A stretch of DNA of 29,037 bases from a virus: positions 1 to 29,037 of the IMG/VR virus record IMGVR_UViG_3300042934_000393. The stretch is one strand, 5' to 3'. Made by a program: the position numbers and the translations under genes. Shown here one piece after another: positions 24-28,402 of the stretch (position 1 is the first letter of the stretch; each line of letters begins with the position of its first letter). The notes beneath the pieces are model-generated. The model searched no databases. It was not told where the DNA came from and saw only the letters and a list, made by a program, of their open reading frames with translations.

Positions 24-454
24 GGAACAACCACCTTCTCCGGATCAGGCGCCCACAACTGGATCTGATACTCAGCAACCGACCCGTACACGACAATCCG
101 CAACTGCGGCTCCCCATACCGGAACACGGTTGCTGTCTTCGCGCCCTTCGGAGTCGTCACCGTCAGAGTGTCCGAACCGCCGTCCTCGAGCAGTGCATCC
201 AACGCATCCAACGCGTCCTCAAACGCCTCCTCATCACCAGTCCCCAGAACCTTCCCGGAGAGCGTGACGATACGACCCGAGAGGTAACCCGGCGTCGCGA
301 ACTGCCCGGGATGATTCGGGCGGTCCACGTACTCACGACGCATCGACGTGCCACCCACGAACCAGCCCTCGAGCCCGTTGTCACCGATCGTGTAGGTCGC
401 CGAAGCACCACCACCCTGGAACGTCAACCCCCCGACCGTCGCCGTGATGCTCAT
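20..454 (-). CDS. Distal tail (Dit)-like minor tail protein
   Basis: A 144 aa protein lying directly after the tape measure gene and sharing an ATGA overlap with it (451-454). That is the place of the distal tail protein in siphophage tail operons, which forms the hexameric ring joining the tube to the tip. It is rich in beta-strand patterns and ends in WAPDPEKVVVP; a WxAPDP-type segment is typical of the Dit N-terminal domain. Full-length Dit proteins usually have about 250-300 residues, so this is short: either a Dit N-domain-only protein or a related minor tail protein. The open frame stops cleanly at a GTGA-coupled start, which argues against a frameshift. Confidence 0.6.
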   Translation of the reverse strand: MSITATVGGLTFQGGGASATYTIGDNGLEGWFVGGTSMRREYVDRPNHPGQFATPGYLSGRIVTLSGKVLGTGDEEAFEDALDALDALLEDGGSDTLTVTTPKGAKTATVFRYGEPQLRIVVYGSVAEYQIQLWAPDPEKVVVP

Positions 455-3171
455 GCGCTCCTCATCTCAAACTCGAGGGTGCGCGCCGCGGCGCGACCGA
501 TCTGCTCTTCACTCATCCCCGGCTGCGGATAGATGTTTTGGCTGACCTGAACGACCTTGCCGTCACCACCACCCGAGGCGCCAGCCATCGACGGGAACCC
601 CTGACCGGTCTTCACCCAACGGCGCATCGCTTCAACGACGTCATGCCCACCCGCAGCATTGACCTCAGACGCAGTCCAGACATGCTCACCGTTCGACAGG
701 CGGTACAGTCCCGCCGTGTCCGAGGTGCCAGTTCCGGGACCGTAGATCGGGCCACCGGAAGCACGTCCGGGCCGCTCCGCGCCAGTCTCGACGCTTTGCA
801 CAGCCCGGTAGTTGATGATGCCCTGCAACGTCCCATACCGGGTCTTGAAGTCCTCGATCGTCCGCGCAGCCGCCGCTGTGTTAGCGATCAGATTCCACTC
901 AGTCTCCGAGGGGATAGTAAGAATCTGATCCACGAGGTTCTTGGCCTCGTCAGCGTTAGCCCCGAGGTCCTCCGCACGGTCTAGGAGCGCCTGCCGCGAG
1001 TCCTCAAGGGTCTTCCGGTAGTTCTCCGTATCCCCGTCGAGCTCGAACTGCTTCTTAGCAGCCTCCTCAGCCTCACGCGCCAGGTCGACCAGCATCTCCT
1101 TGTTGCGGCGCCCCGCATCAGTGCCCTCATCAAGAGTGAGCACGTAATCCGCGAGACCGTCGTTGTTCTCGTCAAGACCCTCACGGGCCTTCCGGATCAC
1201 ATCGTCGATCTCAGCCAGCGAATCCTTGTACGCGATGTTCGCGCTGATCGCATCCTGACCGACACCGTTGGCCTCGTTGATCGTCTCCAGCAAGGTCGCC
1301 AGTTCGTCGTTCAGACCACCAGCCTTATCGGCGGCTTCCTGGTATGCCTGAGCCGCAGTCTTGGTGCTCTCAGTGTTCTCATCCGTCGCGTCCTTGGACT
1401 GCTCCCGGATGTCCTTGCCCCGCTCGAGGCCATCGGTCTCGTCCTTGATGGCTTCACGCAGCGTCCCAGCCGACTGTGCAAGGTCGATGTAGCTGATACC
1501 GAGCTCGTCGGCCATCTTCTGCGCCGCGGACCCGCCAACACTCGCCACGTCAAGGATCTCGTTCAATTCCTCAAGCGCACGCCTGTTACCGGAAGCCGCA
1601 TCAGTGACCAACTGAAGCGAGATGCCCAGCTTCTCGGCGTTGTCGTACGCCGACCCGAACTCCAGACCCAGAACAGACTTCTCCAACGCCAGGTTCTCGA
1701 TAGCCAGATCCCGGGCAGCATCAGCACCCTGCTCGAGCGCCTGCGCATAACCCTCAGCACGCTGACGCGCCTGAGCCTGCTTCTGCGCCAGAGTCCCCAC
1801 CACAGCAACCAGTGCCGTGATCGCGACAACAACCCCGCCGCCGACGAACGCCAGGCGTCCCGCCGTTGTCTGGAGCGTTGCCAGCGCAACACGGAACTCT
1901 GCGATCTTCGGGACTGCGAGGAGAGCCGCACCGCCGGTCAGCGCAACGGCACCAGCAACCCCACCCAGGAGGCCAATGATGCCCTGCACGGGCTCGGGAA
2001 GGTCAGCGAAGCTCTGCGCCATGCCCGCGATAGCATCCGCACCGTCCTTGACCGCGGGGAGGAACACCGCACCCAGGTCGATCGCCGCGTCGCGGATTGA
2101 GTTGCCGGCGATCTGGATCTGCGCCTCAGTCGTCTCGTACCGCTTCCGGGCCTCCTCGACCAGCGCCAGGTTGTCTTCCCACGCGACCGCGCCGAGCTCG
2201 AGCGACTTCCGCAGAAGATCACCCGAATTCGCCATACCAAGAAGCGCCTGCGACACACGAATGTCCGACTGCCCCAGATCAGCGAGAGTCTTGAAGACAT
2301 CCCCACCGGCCGCGTCGATCTTCCCCAGACCCTCAACGAACGTCGCAATCGCGTTCGCCGGGTCCTCATTGAACGCCTTCTGGAACTCCTGCGAAGACAT
2401 CCCCGCAACCTCAGCGAACCGCTCCAGATCCTCCCCACCCGCAGACACCGACATCGCAATGTCAGTCATGATGCGGGAGATAGCAGACCCACCGGCCTCA
2501 GCCTCAATACCCACCGACGCGAGAGCATTCGCGAACCCGAGAACCTGCGCCTCAGTCAGCCCGACAATCTCACCCGCACCAGCGATACGCTGCGCCATCT
2601 CGACAATGTCACGCTCAGTCGACGCACCATCGTTACCCAGCGCCACCAACGCAGCACCCAGGTTGTCAACGTCCTCCGGGGCGGTCTGCATCACGTTCAT
2701 CAACTGCGCGATCGACGTAGCAGCCTCATCCGCCGTCAGATTCGTCGTCTCAGCGAGGTCGATCATCGTCTTCGTGAACTCAGCGATGTTCTCCCGCTCC
2801 ACACCAAGCTGACCCGCCGCCTCAGCGACACCCGCGATCTCCTCATGCGTGGCAGGGAGAACAGCAGTCAGCGACCGCAACTGCTCCTCGAGAACAGCCA
2901 TCTCCTGCGCGTTACCATCAACGGTCTTAGTGACACCAGCCCACGCCGACTCCCAGTCGATCGCAGCCTTCACCGACAGTGCAGTGACGGCGGTAATCGC
3001 AGCGCCGGCAACGACCGCTCCACGCCCAATCTGCTCAAACGCCGACTTCTTCTGCGCAAGCTTCTCCGACTCGGAACCGAGATCCCGCGTCGCCTTCTCT
3101 GCCCGCTCAAAAGCGGCCACATACTCTGCCGACTGAGCCGAAAGGATGACCTTGGTCTGACGATCCGCCAC
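451..3171 (-). CDS. Tail tape measure protein
   Basis: A 906 aa protein, the longest here, placed after the tail chaperones. It sets tail length and passes into the host envelope during DNA ejection. Residues about 85-370 look like the TP901-type tape measure core (IDWESAWAGVTKTV, then long Ala-rich helices). Hydrophobic segments lie at about 397-421 and 440-463, and long charged helices follow. The C-terminus holds NIYPQPGMSEEQIGRAA, a motif that recurs in the small head gene at 6868-7059. At roughly 0.15 nm per residue the tail would be about 135 nm. It starts with GTG at 3171, preceded by AGGCGG. The start lies only 49 bases from a divergent lipoprotein gene. Confidence 0.93.
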   Translation of the reverse strand: MADRQTKVILSAQSAEYVAAFERAEKATRDLGSESEKLAQKKSAFEQIGRGAVVAGAAITAVTALSVKAAIDWESAWAGVTKTVDGNAQEMAVLEEQLRSLTAVLPATHEEIAGVAEAAGQLGVERENIAEFTKTMIDLAETTNLTADEAATSIAQLMNVMQTAPEDVDNLGAALVALGNDGASTERDIVEMAQRIAGAGEIVGLTEAQVLGFANALASVGIEAEAGGSAISRIMTDIAMSVSAGGEDLERFAEVAGMSSQEFQKAFNEDPANAIATFVEGLGKIDAAGGDVFKTLADLGQSDIRVSQALLGMANSGDLLRKSLELGAVAWEDNLALVEEARKRYETTEAQIQIAGNSIRDAAIDLGAVFLPAVKDGADAIAGMAQSFADLPEPVQGIIGLLGGVAGAVALTGGAALLAVPKIAEFRVALATLQTTAGRLAFVGGGVVVAITALVAVVGTLAQKQAQARQRAEGYAQALEQGADAARDLAIENLALEKSVLGLEFGSAYDNAEKLGISLQLVTDAASGNRRALEELNEILDVASVGGSAAQKMADELGISYIDLAQSAGTLREAIKDETDGLERGKDIREQSKDATDENTESTKTAAQAYQEAADKAGGLNDELATLLETINEANGVGQDAISANIAYKDSLAEIDDVIRKAREGLDENNDGLADYVLTLDEGTDAGRRNKEMLVDLAREAEEAAKKQFELDGDTENYRKTLEDSRQALLDRAEDLGANADEAKNLVDQILTIPSETEWNLIANTAAAARTIEDFKTRYGTLQGIINYRAVQSVETGAERPGRASGGPIYGPGTGTSDTAGLYRLSNGEHVWTASEVNAAGGHDVVEAMRRWVKTGQGFPSMAGASGGGDGKVVQVSQNIYPQPGMSEEQIGRAAARTLEFEMRSA

Positions 3172-3185
3172 CGAATCACCGCCTG

Positions 3186-3214
3186 TTCTGTTACGTGCCG
3201 CGCGGCGCTACGAT
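3186..3214 (+). promoter_or_regulatory. Leaderless promoter of the lipoprotein gene
   Basis: A -10 box TACGAT at 3209-3214 (fits TANNNT) ends six bases before the ATG at 3221, so transcription would begin at or next to the start codon. A weak -35, TTCTGT, lies at 3186-3191 with a 17-base spacer. No Shine-Dalgarno sequence precedes the ATG, which agrees with a leaderless mRNA. Confidence 0.55.
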
Positions 3215-3220
3215 CAGCGC

Positions 3221-3520
3221 ATGAGGAAACTGGCGGCGGTTGCCGTTGCGGCGATGCTGTTCGCCCTATCGGGATGCGCCGGAGGTGGCGGGTACATCGA
3301 GACGATCCGCGAAGACCGGCCGACGTTGACGGAAGACCTCACCGAAGAGGAACTTGAATCCATCGGTGAGGCTGTCTGCGCCGCCCTCGACGAGGGGTTA
3401 AGCGGGCACCGTGCGGCTGCGGAGTTGGAGGCGAGCGGCATGAGCATCGCGGATGCCGGGACTGTCGTCCTAGCCGCAAGCGATCACCTATGCCCGCAGC
3501 ACGCCTCAACCGTCGATTAG
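3221..3520 (+). CDS. Small secreted lipoprotein (moron), DUF732-like
   Basis: A 99 aa protein on the strand opposite to the whole tail operon. It has a clear lipoprotein signal: MRK, a hydrophobic run, then the lipobox L-S-G-C with Cys19 as the lipidated residue. The mature part has two more cysteines (EAVCAALDEGL and HLCPQH) framing a helical region. This resembles the small DUF732-type secreted domain of mycobacteria; that match is from memory. It would sit on the outer face of the host membrane. With its own leaderless promoter and opposite orientation it is a typical moron. Superinfection exclusion or lysogenic conversion are likely roles, by inference. Its last 15 bases overlap the convergent chaperone frame. 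Confidence 0.8.
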   Translation: MRKLAAVAVAAMLFALSGCAGGGGYIETIREDRPTLTEDLTEEELESIGEAVCAALDEGLSGHRAAAELEASGMSIADAGTVVLAASDHLCPQHASTVD

Positions 3521-3841
3521 CTCGGCACTCCACCGCAACGTCGACATGTCCGCTTCCGGGTACGAGCGGCGATAGTCTTCCTTCACCAACCGCACCGCTT
3601 CCTCCGACCAGTCGCGACGTGGACCGACAACCTTGAACTTGAACTGGTTGGCAGGGTCCATTGCGACGTGATGCGGGATGCCCAGATCGTTTCGGCTTTG
3701 CTCGAGCCGGCGCGCGGCCAGCAGCGTCTCGAGTTCCGTGGGCGTGAAGCGGGGTTCGCTGACACTCACCGACACAACGTTCCCGTTGGCGTCGAGGGTT
3801 ACCGTCGCGGACGCCCATCCGTTGAGTTCGCGGACGGTCAC
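3506..3841 (-). CDS. Tail assembly chaperone, frameshift extension (gpT-like)
   Basis: A 111 aa frame with a possible GTG start at 3841, although the frame is open upstream to 3892, before the stop of the first chaperone. Read through from the slippery site it gives SLSGRAEEEAQLARELGVTVREL and onward, which is a typical continuation in chaperone fusions. I therefore think its main product is the C-terminal 128 residues of a 268 aa G-T fusion, not a free protein. Such fusions bind the tape measure and recruit tail tube subunits. Its 3' end overlaps the convergent lipoprotein gene by 15 bases. Confidence 0.75.
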   Translation of the reverse strand: MTVRELNGWASATVTLDANGNVVSVSVSEPRFTPTELETLLAARRLEQSRNDLGIPHHVAMDPANQFKFKVVGPRRDWSEEAVRLVKEDYRRSYPEADMSTLRWSAELIDG

Positions 3842-3855
3842 GCCAAGTTCGCGGG

Positions 3856-4311
3856 CTAGCTGGGCTTCTTCTTCCGCCCGCCCGCTGAGGCTTTTCCCGC
3901 GTGCGCGAGCCGCTTAGCAGGGTCGTATTCGTTCAGACCCCACACCGCAGAGGCAAGGTTCTTCAGGTCGGGTCCCGAGAGGGAATCCACGACGTCGAAC
4001 CACGGGCGCTTCTCGGGGTCCGTGACCAGCTTCCTCGGCAGCGGGTCGCTGACCTTCACAACGTCGTCACCCTGCACCAGGTACACGTTCGGGTATGACC
4101 GTGTCACCGCATCGAGGTTGTAGCCGAGGTTCTGGTCCATGACGACCTTCGGCCGTGCCGGGTGCTCTGCGGTCAACGCCCGCCAAGCCGAACCCGTGAC
4201 CGGCCAGAACCGAACCGTCACCACCTCGTCACCCATGAGGATGTCCTGATCTACAGGCTCCACCGAGTCGAACGACTCCCGGGCCTTCGCGACAAGAGCC
4301 GCAATATCCAT
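3856..4311 (-). CDS. Tail assembly chaperone (gpG-like)
   Basis: A 151 aa protein between the major tail protein and the tape measure, the conserved place of the first tail chaperone. It has VVTVRFWPVTGSAWRALTAEHP near the N-terminus and a C-terminal helix LKNLASAVWGLNE, as in actinophage chaperones. It ends in the basic tail GGRKKKPS. A canonical X XXY YYZ slippery heptamer is in frame at codons 139-140 (GGA AAA), 11 codons before the stop. Most ribosomes would give this short form and a minority the fusion. Confidence 0.85.
   Translation of the reverse strand: MDIAALVAKARESFDSVEPVDQDILMGDEVVTVRFWPVTGSAWRALTAEHPARPKVVMDQNLGYNLDAVTRSYPNVYLVQGDDVVKVSDPLPRKLVTDPEKRPWFDVVDSLSGPDLKNLASAVWGLNEYDPAKRLAHAGKASAGGRKKKPS
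3892..3898 (-). promoter_or_regulatory. -1 programmed frameshift site GGGAAAA
   Basis: On the minus strand the zero frame reads gcG GGA AAA gcc, a perfect X XXY YYZ heptamer. It differs only in the last base from the lambda G-T site GGGAAAG. Slipping back one base moves from the 3856-4311 frame into the 3506-3841 frame, which is open across the junction. The frames agree: the first gene's codons begin at positions divisible by 3, the second's at positions one higher. The predicted fusion is 140 + 128 residues. Confidence 0.85.
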
Positions 4312-4386: not shown

Positions 4387-4869
4387 TTACGCGATGACGG
4401 CGACGTCGTCCTGCGTGGCGTCGACCACGAACAGCGTCTGCGTGATGGTCTGCACACCGTTCTCCACGGGCGAGTCCTTGCGCTGCTTGCCGCACTCGAT
4501 CGTGATGACATCGACGATCTGAGCCGCAGTCCACACGGTCTCGTTCGGCTCCGAGTAGCGGAGAGTCAGGTGACCCTTCGTACCGCGGGTGAGAGTCGCA
4601 GCAGCAACATCGGCAGCGTCACCGAACACGTACTGCACCTCAACCTGCTCGGTGACCTTGCCGGCCTTCTCAAGAATCTGCTTGAGCGTGAGGCGGGGGT
4701 CTTCGATCCGCGCCTCAGTGATCGTGCGCGCCAGGGTCTTCAGCGAGTAGGTGAGATCCGCACCAGCCGCGAGGTCCGCCGCCGAGGTCGGGTCATCTGC
4801 TTCCGCAGTGAAGGTGATTCGCAGGTTTCCATCCCATGCGACTGATCCAGGAACGGCCTCAAGAGCCAT
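4387..4869 (-). CDS. Major tail tube protein
   Basis: A 160 aa protein just upstream of the chaperones, the conserved place of the tail tube subunit. It polymerises as hexameric rings around the tape measure. The sequence is beta-rich (SVAWDGNLRITFTAEADD, VEVQYVFGD, GHLTLRYSEP) with few cysteines. I chose the ATG at 4869, giving MALEAVPGS, because GAGGAG lies just upstream and the previous gene stops at 4871. The longer frame to 4908 lacks a ribosome site. The strong terminator behind it fits a highly expressed product. Confidence 0.85.
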   Translation of the reverse strand: MALEAVPGSVAWDGNLRITFTAEADDPTSAADLAAGADLTYSLKTLARTITEARIEDPRLTLKQILEKAGKVTEQVEVQYVFGDAADVAAATLTRGTKGHLTLRYSEPNETVWTAAQIVDVITIECGKQRKDSPVENGVQTITQTLFVVDATQDDVAVIA

Positions 4870-7059: not shown

Positions 7060-7955
7060 CAGACGAGGTCGTGGATCTTCGCGAACGCGTTCAGGTCCGC
7101 GATGCCCCAGCCGTAAACAACCTCCGCACGGAACGCGACCTGGTTCTTACGCTTCAGGTCACCGCCACCGTCCGGGTCACCGTAACGGATGACCTCAAGG
7201 CCGATCGACTTCTGCACACCCCAACGGATGGCCGAGAAGTCGCCGACGAACCCGAGCACGTCGGTGTCGACCGCGAGTACACCAGTACCGCGAACCGTGT
7301 TCGACACGGACGCACGGTGGCCGTCGAGCTCGCTGGTCTCGATGCCGAGACGGAAGTTCGGGTACAGCTTCTGCTCGGAGTTCGTACCGCGCAGAGCCGA
7401 GAACTTCGCCGCGTAGGTCGGGTCCAGTGCGATGTCGCGGGGAACGAACCCATCCGCGAGGACAAGCGCGTCAGCCGCGTCCAGGCTCACGTACGGCTTG
7501 TCCGCAGCCACGTACTCCACCAGGTTCGTGGTGTCAGTGAGACCACCGTTCATTGCGGCGACAACAGCACCACCGGTCGGGTTGATCTCGTGGAACACAC
7601 CGAAGTCGAGCGCGCGGGAGAGCGCCGGCTGAATGAGAGCAAGGATCTCGTCCACGATCTCAAGCTGACGGTCCTCGTCCGCCCACAGAACCTCTTCGTT
7701 GAAACGGAGAGTCTTGTGGAACTTGAACGGCTTGATCGTCTTGCTCGTCGGAGTCACCGTCGAAGCGCCCTTGTCGCCACCCTCAGCGACATACTCGGCC
7801 TCGCCGATGTCGAACGTCCACGACTCGCCCTCACCGAACGTCATCGGAGTCTGAGCGGAAAGGGTGGCCACAGCCGACCCGTTCTGGATCGCACCAAGCC
7901 ACGGCGCGATCTTCTGCTTGGGGATCGAAAGCGACCCCGTAGCAAGTGATGTCAT
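7059..7955 (-). CDS. Major capsid protein (HK97 fold)
   Basis: A 298 aa protein following a scaffold-like gene. Capsid marks include an N-terminal extension (MTSLATGSLSIPKQKIAPWL), an E-loop-like stretch GEGESWTFDIGEAEYVAEGGDKG, the spine helix ILALIQPALSRALDFGVFHE, and a C-terminal FRAEVVYGWGIADLNAFAKI. GAAAGG lies just before the ATG at 7955. It builds the icosahedral head around the portal. No protease domain or gene is seen nearby, so the scaffold is probably removed without a phage protease. Confidence 0.9.
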   Translation of the reverse strand: MTSLATGSLSIPKQKIAPWLGAIQNGSAVATLSAQTPMTFGEGESWTFDIGEAEYVAEGGDKGASTVTPTSKTIKPFKFHKTLRFNEEVLWADEDRQLEIVDEILALIQPALSRALDFGVFHEINPTGGAVVAAMNGGLTDTTNLVEYVAADKPYVSLDAADALVLADGFVPRDIALDPTYAAKFSALRGTNSEQKLYPNFRLGIETSELDGHRASVSNTVRGTGVLAVDTDVLGFVGDFSAIRWGVQKSIGLEVIRYGDPDGGGDLKRKNQVAFRAEVVYGWGIADLNAFAKIHDLV

Positions 7956-17061: not shown

Positions 17062-17685
17062 TCACCCCTCCCTGTTCTCGAGTTCGTAGGCGAGTTCTCG
17101 TGCTCCCCACCTCTTGTCGCAGGCGCGGCAATGAGCAGTGGACTCGTCAATCAGGTTCACTTCAGGGTTGCGGGGTGATTCGACGACAAGGGGACGCGGG
17201 TATCGTTCCCCATCCCTCCACCACTCCGACGCCCCACATGTCGGGCAGGGGTCGGGGAGGTCTTTCTGTCGGGGTGGTTCAATCTCCCTACGGATCGCAG
17301 ATTCCCAGTTGCCCATGATCCGTGTGCGGGCGTTTACGGCTTCCGGTTCACGGACGGTCTGCGTCCATGCCACATACCATGCCCGCAACGTCCGCCCCGG
17401 ATCACCCTTATGCACGGTTGCTTTCGCCCCATGCGCCCAATCCGTGATCTGCGAACTGATCCGCATGAACAGTTGGAGGGCGCCGGAGTTGATCGGTACC
17501 CGCTGGTTCGGGAGCGACTTCGACCCTTCCCGGCTGAGGGAGAACCGGATCTCGTTCTCCAACCGGTCCAGCAGGGGCGTGTCGAACACGACACACGTGA
17601 ACCGGGAATCCTGAATCGTGTGATGCAGAACCCCCGGTTTCGTCAGCGCATCAACAGCGTCGAGGAGTTCGGTGAGTTCGGTCAT
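17062..17685 (-). CDS. DUF7341-like protein with zinc ribbon
   Basis: A 207 aa protein. The N-terminal part (MTELTELLDAVDALTKPG, then TPLLDRLENEIRFSLSREGS and NQRVPINSGALQLFMRISSQ) follows a pattern I know from actinophage DUF7340/7341 proteins. The C-terminus has DPCPTCGASEWW and HCRACDKRWGA, a four-Cys zinc ribbon. The ATG at 17685 overlaps the upstream stop as ATGA. It always lies among replication genes, but its function is unknown. It converges with the mini-HTH gene, one base apart. Confidence 0.75.
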   Translation of the reverse strand: MTELTELLDAVDALTKPGVLHHTIQDSRFTCVVFDTPLLDRLENEIRFSLSREGSKSLPNQRVPINSGALQLFMRISSQITDWAHGAKATVHKGDPGRTLRAWYVAWTQTVREPEAVNARTRIMGNWESAIRREIEPPRQKDLPDPCPTCGASEWWRDGERYPRPLVVESPRNPEVNLIDESTAHCRACDKRWGARELAYELENREG

Positions 17686-27987: not shown

Positions 27988-28190
27988 CACACACCCCCCA
28001 TGTGGTCAACGTCCGACTCAAACCTGGGCCGGCCCGGCGTCTCGTGCTGCCGGTGCTCAACCAGCAAATCCACCGCAAGCAACCCGGCCCCGATACCGAG
28101 CGGCACCCACCCATCCACCCCGAAAAACACAAGGGTCGCGCCGAAGAAGAACAGGAACCCTCCAGCGATCACATTCAACGCACGGAGCAT
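27987..28190 (-). CDS. Small two-helix membrane protein, 67 aa
   Basis: MLRALNVIAGGFLFFFGATL, then VFFGVDGWVPLGIGAGLLAV and DLLVEHRQHETPGRPRF. Two hydrophobic stretches (residues about 4-24 and 28-42) joined by a short turn, with a polar tail. It lies next to the regulator genes, a place where exclusion or immunity membrane proteins occur; that is inference. ATG at 28190 in a TGATG overlap. Confidence 0.65.
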   Translation of the reverse strand: MLRALNVIAGGFLFFFGATLVFFGVDGWVPLGIGAGLLAVDLLVEHRQHETPGRPRFESDVDHMGGV

Positions 28191-28402
28191 CACGCCACCT
28201 CCAGCTCGGGAGATTCGTCGGCTTCGACGAGGATCAGGCGTGCCTGGTTCCAAGCGTCAAGGTCGGCGGTATAGAACGCGTTCCGATTACCCTGCTTGTA
28301 ATGCTTCGGACCCTTGCCCTGCGAGATCAGGTTGTACAACGTCTGTACCGCCATGCCGCAGTAGTCAGCCGCAGCCTTCGACGTGAGGACGGGGCCGCTC
28401 AT
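28190..28402 (-). CDS. Excisionase-like helix-turn-helix protein, 70 aa
   Basis: MSGPVLTSKAAADYCGMAVQ, then TLYNLISQGKGPKHYKQGNR and FYTADLDAWNQARL. This is the MerR/Xis-type winged-helix pattern (LTSKAAADYCGMAVQTLYNLISQGKGP, then the basic wing and YTADLDAW). Such proteins act in phage excision or as early regulators. ATG at 28402 overlaps the Cro-like gene by ATGA. No integrase in the window. Confidence 0.8.
   Translation of the reverse strand: MSGPVLTSKAAADYCGMAVQTLYNLISQGKGPKHYKQGNRNAFYTADLDAWNQARLILVEADESPELEVA

Follow-up and report, generated by a model that had tools for sequence, protein, structure and literature searches.

An antiparallel DUF732 lipoprotein gene as an unusual occupant of a putative moron slot between phage tail chaperone and tape measure genes

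Introduction

For most small genes of phages no function has been established, and one of them raises a question by its position alone: why would a virus carry a lipoprotein gene, read against the direction of its tail genes, at the junction between the tail assembly chaperone and the tape measure protein (TMP), and what would the product do there? The gene lies at positions 3221–3520 (+) of a 29,037-base IMG/VR virus record (IMGVR_UViG_3300042934_000393), the whole of which is henceforth termed the window. A preliminary description made from the DNA letters had noted a complete lipobox protein in opposite orientation between two tail genes and had proposed a role in superinfection exclusion. 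It was correct about the existence and interest of the gene and about the family it named, DUF732. Here, we argue that the location is of greater interest than the gene itself: the junction appears to be a recurring moron slot, of which the lipoprotein is one unusual occupant.

Results and Discussion

The open reading frame (ORF) is complete, running from an ATG start through 99 codons to a TAG stop, and is a real, conserved gene. It is present in two further IMG/VR records: L002, which is 99.8% identical to the window across the shared 9.5 kb, and L003, which is 92% identical across 6.5 kb. Between the window and L003, the lipoprotein gene differs by 30 substitutions, 22 synonymous and 8 nonsynonymous, corresponding to a ratio of nonsynonymous to synonymous rates (dN/dS) of 0.10 and a synonymous excess with P = 4e-8 under neutrality; in the shifted frames the ratio is 3.4 (+1) and 2.2 (+2). 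This constraint is in line with that on the neighboring chaperone, the G–T frameshift fusion GT (0.09), while the ratio lies above that of the TMP gene (0.04). As the antisense frame with shared third positions gives 0.16, the strand is settled by homology and not by dN/dS. A chance ORF or antisense artefact was ruled out by dN/dS, profile match, and fold, and the chaperone frame was rejected as the true gene in 3221–3505, with the T stop at 3506 and GT complete. The overlap with the chaperone frame that had been described at the 3' end is convergent and spans 15 nt (3506–3520, both strands), from the stop of the one gene to the stop of the other.

The product starts with MRKLAAVAVAAMLFALSGC, a signal peptide (3221–3277, +) that ends in the lipobox cysteine (LSG-C19, codon at 3275–3277) and is kept in L003; the only hydrophobic segment covers residues 4–22. 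Judged by this signal, the protein would be lipid-modified and located in the membrane. A pair of cysteines in the mature part had led to the suggestion of a DUF732-like disulfide fold, which both profile and structure searches bear out. The protein matches PF05305 (DUF732) with E = 9.4e-9 and 36 bits, above the gathering cut-off of 22.4, and PHROG 658 with E = 3.9e-12. Its DUF732 domain (3347–3499, +) contains C53 and C91, corresponding to two cysteines that are invariant in phage DUF732 proteins (alignments A1 and A3), which also share a proline following the cysteines, D57, and G59. An AlphaFold2 model of the mature protein, built with 20 sequences, consists of six helices (predicted local distance difference test 87.3, predicted template modeling (TM) score 0.78), and its top matches in a viral structure library (BFVD) include many phage DUF732 proteins, among them the best of the named matches, with TM scores up to 0.86. 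A C53–C91 disulfide probably closes the domain. Neither sequence nor Foldseek searches revealed convincing relatives among solved structures, and a VIA-align comparison reached a best Z of 4.3, a value that carries no weight for a helical bundle. With a net charge of −14, the mature protein is acidic.

Among phage proteins, Stormageddon gp164, Microdon gp40, and Fruitloop gp54 (PF05305, PHROG 658) share the domain, the invariant cysteines, and a C-P-x-H motif with the window protein. The first two also have a lipobox, whereas the Fruitloop-type versions examined (cluster F1) look secreted and lack one; all three genes lie outside the tail operon, unlike the window gene. Fruitloop gp54 (L052:2330–2665) is located near gp52, a Wag31-binding exclusion protein of cluster F1 mycobacteriophages. 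A second family of DUF732-like lipoproteins, in which CPEN replaces CPxH, was seen on IMG/VR contigs L071–L078, several of them 50–156 kb long; it had no match in the phage collection.

The position of the gene, by comparison, recurs in related phages. The Microbacterium phage Footloose (gp15) and the Arthrobacter phage Seahorse (gp19), both reached via the chaperone, have a small gene of reverse orientation at the GT–TMP junction too, as do TripleJ (gp17) and Faja (gp18). Two more are unannotated ORFs, one of 71 codons and two hydrophobic segments in the Arthrobacter phage Pitbull (L174:8957–9172, −), the nearest named relative encountered (capsid 93%, terminase 66%), and one of 64 codons at the same junction of IMG/VR record L014; annotation misses such genes, as the Pitbull copy illustrates. 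These genes share junction and reverse orientation with the window gene. Unlike the lipoprotein, however, their products (56–84 residues) have two hydrophobic segments each and are devoid of lipobox and DUF732.

Scanning with the TMP N-termini of five of these phages yielded 80 loci, in 64 of which the GT end could be placed; the resulting counts refer to records and not to events, and several loci are near duplicates. The slot is empty in 20 of the 64 loci, with GT 14–42 nt from TMP, and in 31 an automatic search found an ORF on the opposite strand that encodes one or more hydrophobic segments. In 10 of the remaining 13, choosing a different start codon reveals such a gene, so that at least 41 of the 64 are occupied, nearly all by genes for proteins of 64–106 amino acids with one or two transmembrane segments. 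No slot gene was evident in L252 and L253. The control, the strand opposite TMP in the same loci, contained a single ORF with two hydrophobic segments among 583 of 40–110 codons. The earlier statement that the two tail genes normally adjoin thus holds for the 20 loci in which GT abuts TMP, but not for the at least 41 that carry an antiparallel gene. In L209, the last of the 13, the gap contains a gene related to the slot gene of L181 but with ATA replacing the start codon, possibly a decayed copy or one with a rare start.

Empty and occupied versions of the junction occur beside TMP N-termini that are 96.8% (L224/L228), 93.0% (L220/L215), and 92.0% (L226/L216) identical, and alignments show clean junctions, with the insert lying after the end of GT and ahead of the ribosome-binding site of TMP. 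Because both versions are found next to TMPs 97% identical, these comparisons identify the GT–TMP junction as a presence/absence moron slot, with the DUF732 lipoprotein as a new payload, and they support the moron status given to the gene in the preliminary description. Within the lineage of the window, the picture is not as clear-cut: G003, whose TMP is 82% identical to that of the window, lacks the lipoprotein gene, but its chaperones also differ, and DNA likeness begins at the TMP start codon. The slot proteins are diverse and without convincing family match; in the pairs tested, dN is below dS, mostly far below. The passages found in surveys of Arthrobacter and Microbacterium phages do not mention the slot.

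A tyrosine integrase is present in 14 of 17 near-complete records with an occupied slot. The window virus, a phage of soil-type actinobacteria, is very probably temperate, since a tyrosine integrase is encoded on the longer contig of L002 and an excisionase-like HTH_17 gene in the window at 28190–28402. A plasmid search gave no match, and scanning genome contigs with the TMP yielded no locus from actinobacteria.

The −10 box attributed to the lipoprotein gene is TACGAT at 3209–3214 (+), centered 9.5 nt before the A of the ATG; such a box has a chance of 1.5% before ATG and GTG codons on this strand. In M. tuberculosis, TANNNT is centered 7–12 nt before 73% of primary start sites, without a conserved −35 element (PMC3898074). 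As the spacing of TACGAT fits this distance, the transcript is probably leaderless, starting on the ATG; no sigma70-type −35/−10 pair was found for the gene. The same pattern appears in other slot genes, including those of Footloose and TripleJ: TANNNT starts at −13 to −11 in 15 of 30 non-redundant slot genes, against a background of 0.5% per position among all reverse ATGs in the surveyed loci (P~3e-18).

In the window, the box is embedded in an inverted repeat, GCGCT-ACGATC-AGCGC (3205–3220, invariant in L003), that abuts the ATG, and the entire 49-nt intergenic region (3172–3220) is unchanged in L003, though third positions differ by 16–23%. As for an operator shared with other places in the window, only three further sites occur, each at 3 mismatches, a number above the chance mean and equalled in 1 of 100 shuffles. 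Slot genes have a −10 box within an inverted repeat in 15 of 30 cases against 15% in the background (P~1e-5; 3.2 expected from shuffles), a statistic softer than that of the −10 box because some members are related and, where there was a choice of start codons, it was made by eye. The right arm touches or almost touches the start codon, and the arms vary yet remain symmetric (CCGC/GCGG, TGGC/GCCA, GCCCCGA/TCGGGGC). The last of these belongs to the slot gene of L014 (5765–5959, −), in which a TAAGAT box lies in the 7-bp repeat GCCCCGA[TAAGA]TCGGGGC directly before the ATG. As RNA, the leader hairpin of the window is no more stable than shuffles, and an operator is one possibility for the repeat. 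A largely regulatory element, in which an antisense transcript or the repeat tunes T and TMP expression while the protein is secondary, would agree with this arrangement of box and changing arms and with the convergent overlap with GT, yet we consider it very unlikely in view of the strong purifying selection on the protein, the low dN in the slot genes tested, and the relatives that do without the insert.

What, then, would the product do? With moderate confidence, we favor a moron that is expressed from the prophage and acts as a membrane-anchored superinfection-exclusion factor at genome entry. Read against the late tail operon from a leaderless promoter of its own, the gene should be expressed in the lysogen, in which silent tail genes would leave the antiparallel promoter free; during lytic growth, late transcription would oppose it. 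The product would be exported and lipid-anchored at C19 on the outer face of the membrane, exposing a small acidic helical DUF732 domain that most likely disturbs genome entry of other siphophages. Exclusion, as proposed in the preliminary description, is the best-supported function because the same junction holds the moron gp15 of HK97 and because related phages place small membrane proteins there, although it stays at the level of what we infer. By analogy with HK97 gp15 and Ltp of phage TP-J34, the slot genes as a group, the DUF732 lipoprotein included, most likely keep out superinfecting siphophages at the stage of genome entry. That the lipoprotein touches the incoming tape measure, as had been suggested, is possible; its target may be a heterologous TMP, another part of the tail tip, or a host entry protein.

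Two known systems frame this proposal. DNA injection is reported to be blocked by both HK97 gp15 and Ltp; the block is overcome when phages exchange tail tube and TMP or when TMP itself changes, and hybrids with the HK022 tail tube and TMP genes escape that of gp15 (PMC10883804). Like the window gene, gp15 is inserted between a frameshifted chaperone and TMP and encodes a small membrane-associated product; unlike it, gp15 reads in the same direction as the tail genes, bears an annotated putative terminator, and encodes a protein with a single N-terminal hydrophobic segment that lacks both lipobox and DUF732. Ltp of the temperate Gram-positive phage TP-J34 stops DNA entry with TMP as its target (PMC3952083) and is a small lipid-anchored exclusion protein with important negative charges (PMC3952083, PMC11480721). 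It has a serine-rich spacer and a repeat domain, whereas the window protein matches DUF732, with no Ltp-type family among its Pfam matches (E<=1).

Several observations weigh against an exclusion moron. Complementarity of charge with the phage's own TMP, on the Ltp model, was rejected as unsupported: this TMP is acidic and has no positive C-terminus (net −65, last 60 residues +1), which makes such attraction inapplicable to it. No intrinsic terminator, one of the marks of a moron, was found for the lipoprotein gene, and a PADLOC search of the protein gave no match. DUF732 is a domain without known function, whose genes in other phages lie mostly near immunity, WhiB, or recombination genes and in many cases encode secreted proteins without lipobox; the family was therefore not made for this site. 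Since DUF732 was found in no other slot examined, whether in the surveyed loci, in other records with window-type TMPs, or in reference phages, the evidence for this payload comes from a single lineage (window, L002, L003). Phages with an empty slot, moreover, can be temperate too.

Two further explanations deserve mention. The lipoprotein might serve lysogenic conversion without exclusion, changing the envelope or contributing to host fitness through nutrient binding, stress, or surface interaction, in a slot that is simply permissive for lysogen-expressed genes. Mycobacteria and their phages are the main known source of DUF732, with no link to phage defense in the papers found, overexpression of the DUF732 protein Troll4 gp76 is deleterious to M. 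smegmatis (PMC7474061), and the diversity of the slot proteins would suit such a role; we nevertheless regard it as rather unlikely, given the exclusion protein at the same junction in HK97 and the near restriction of slot occupants to small membrane proteins. Less probable still is a function in the lytic phase, whereby early expression shields the infected cell against phages arriving later or modifies its envelope ahead of lysis. In most cases examined, the DUF732 gene of a phage is indeed found immediately to the right of the immunity genes, together with WhiB, RecET, and similar genes, and those in the early region of mycobacteriophages are presumably expressed early in infection. The window gene, in contrast, is away from the early genes and faces a late operon whose transcription would oppose it, and its promoter resembles a stand-alone housekeeping-type −10.

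Returning to exclusion at genome entry, we put forward a broader version only tentatively: the junction in temperate actinophages may be a dedicated slot for an antiparallel, leaderless, lysogen-expressed cassette with swappable membrane payloads that exclude phages at genome entry and are linked to TMP by coevolution, in which case the lipoprotein would be the first payload with a lipid anchor and would give DUF732 its first function. A fixed slot with variable small membrane proteins beside a DNA-entry gene offers a shortlist of candidate exclusion factors in phages whose Arthrobacter and Microbacterium hosts can be cultured, and DUF732 gains a first testable role.

On the minus strand around the slot, the tail tube gene (4387–4869) is followed by chaperone G (3856–4311), the T part of GT (3506–3841), which is 30% identical over 94% to the Footloose chaperone, and the gene for the 906-residue TMP (451–3171), with PhageMin_Tail and many PHROG tape-measure matches. 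A correctly phased −1 slip site, G_GGA_AAA (GGGAAAA, 3892–3898, −), joins G and T into a fusion of 268 residues, an arrangement like lambda G–GT. G003 (L048), a virus contig of 19.8 kb, has two separate tyrosine integrase matches, at 7334–7807 and 17140–17619.
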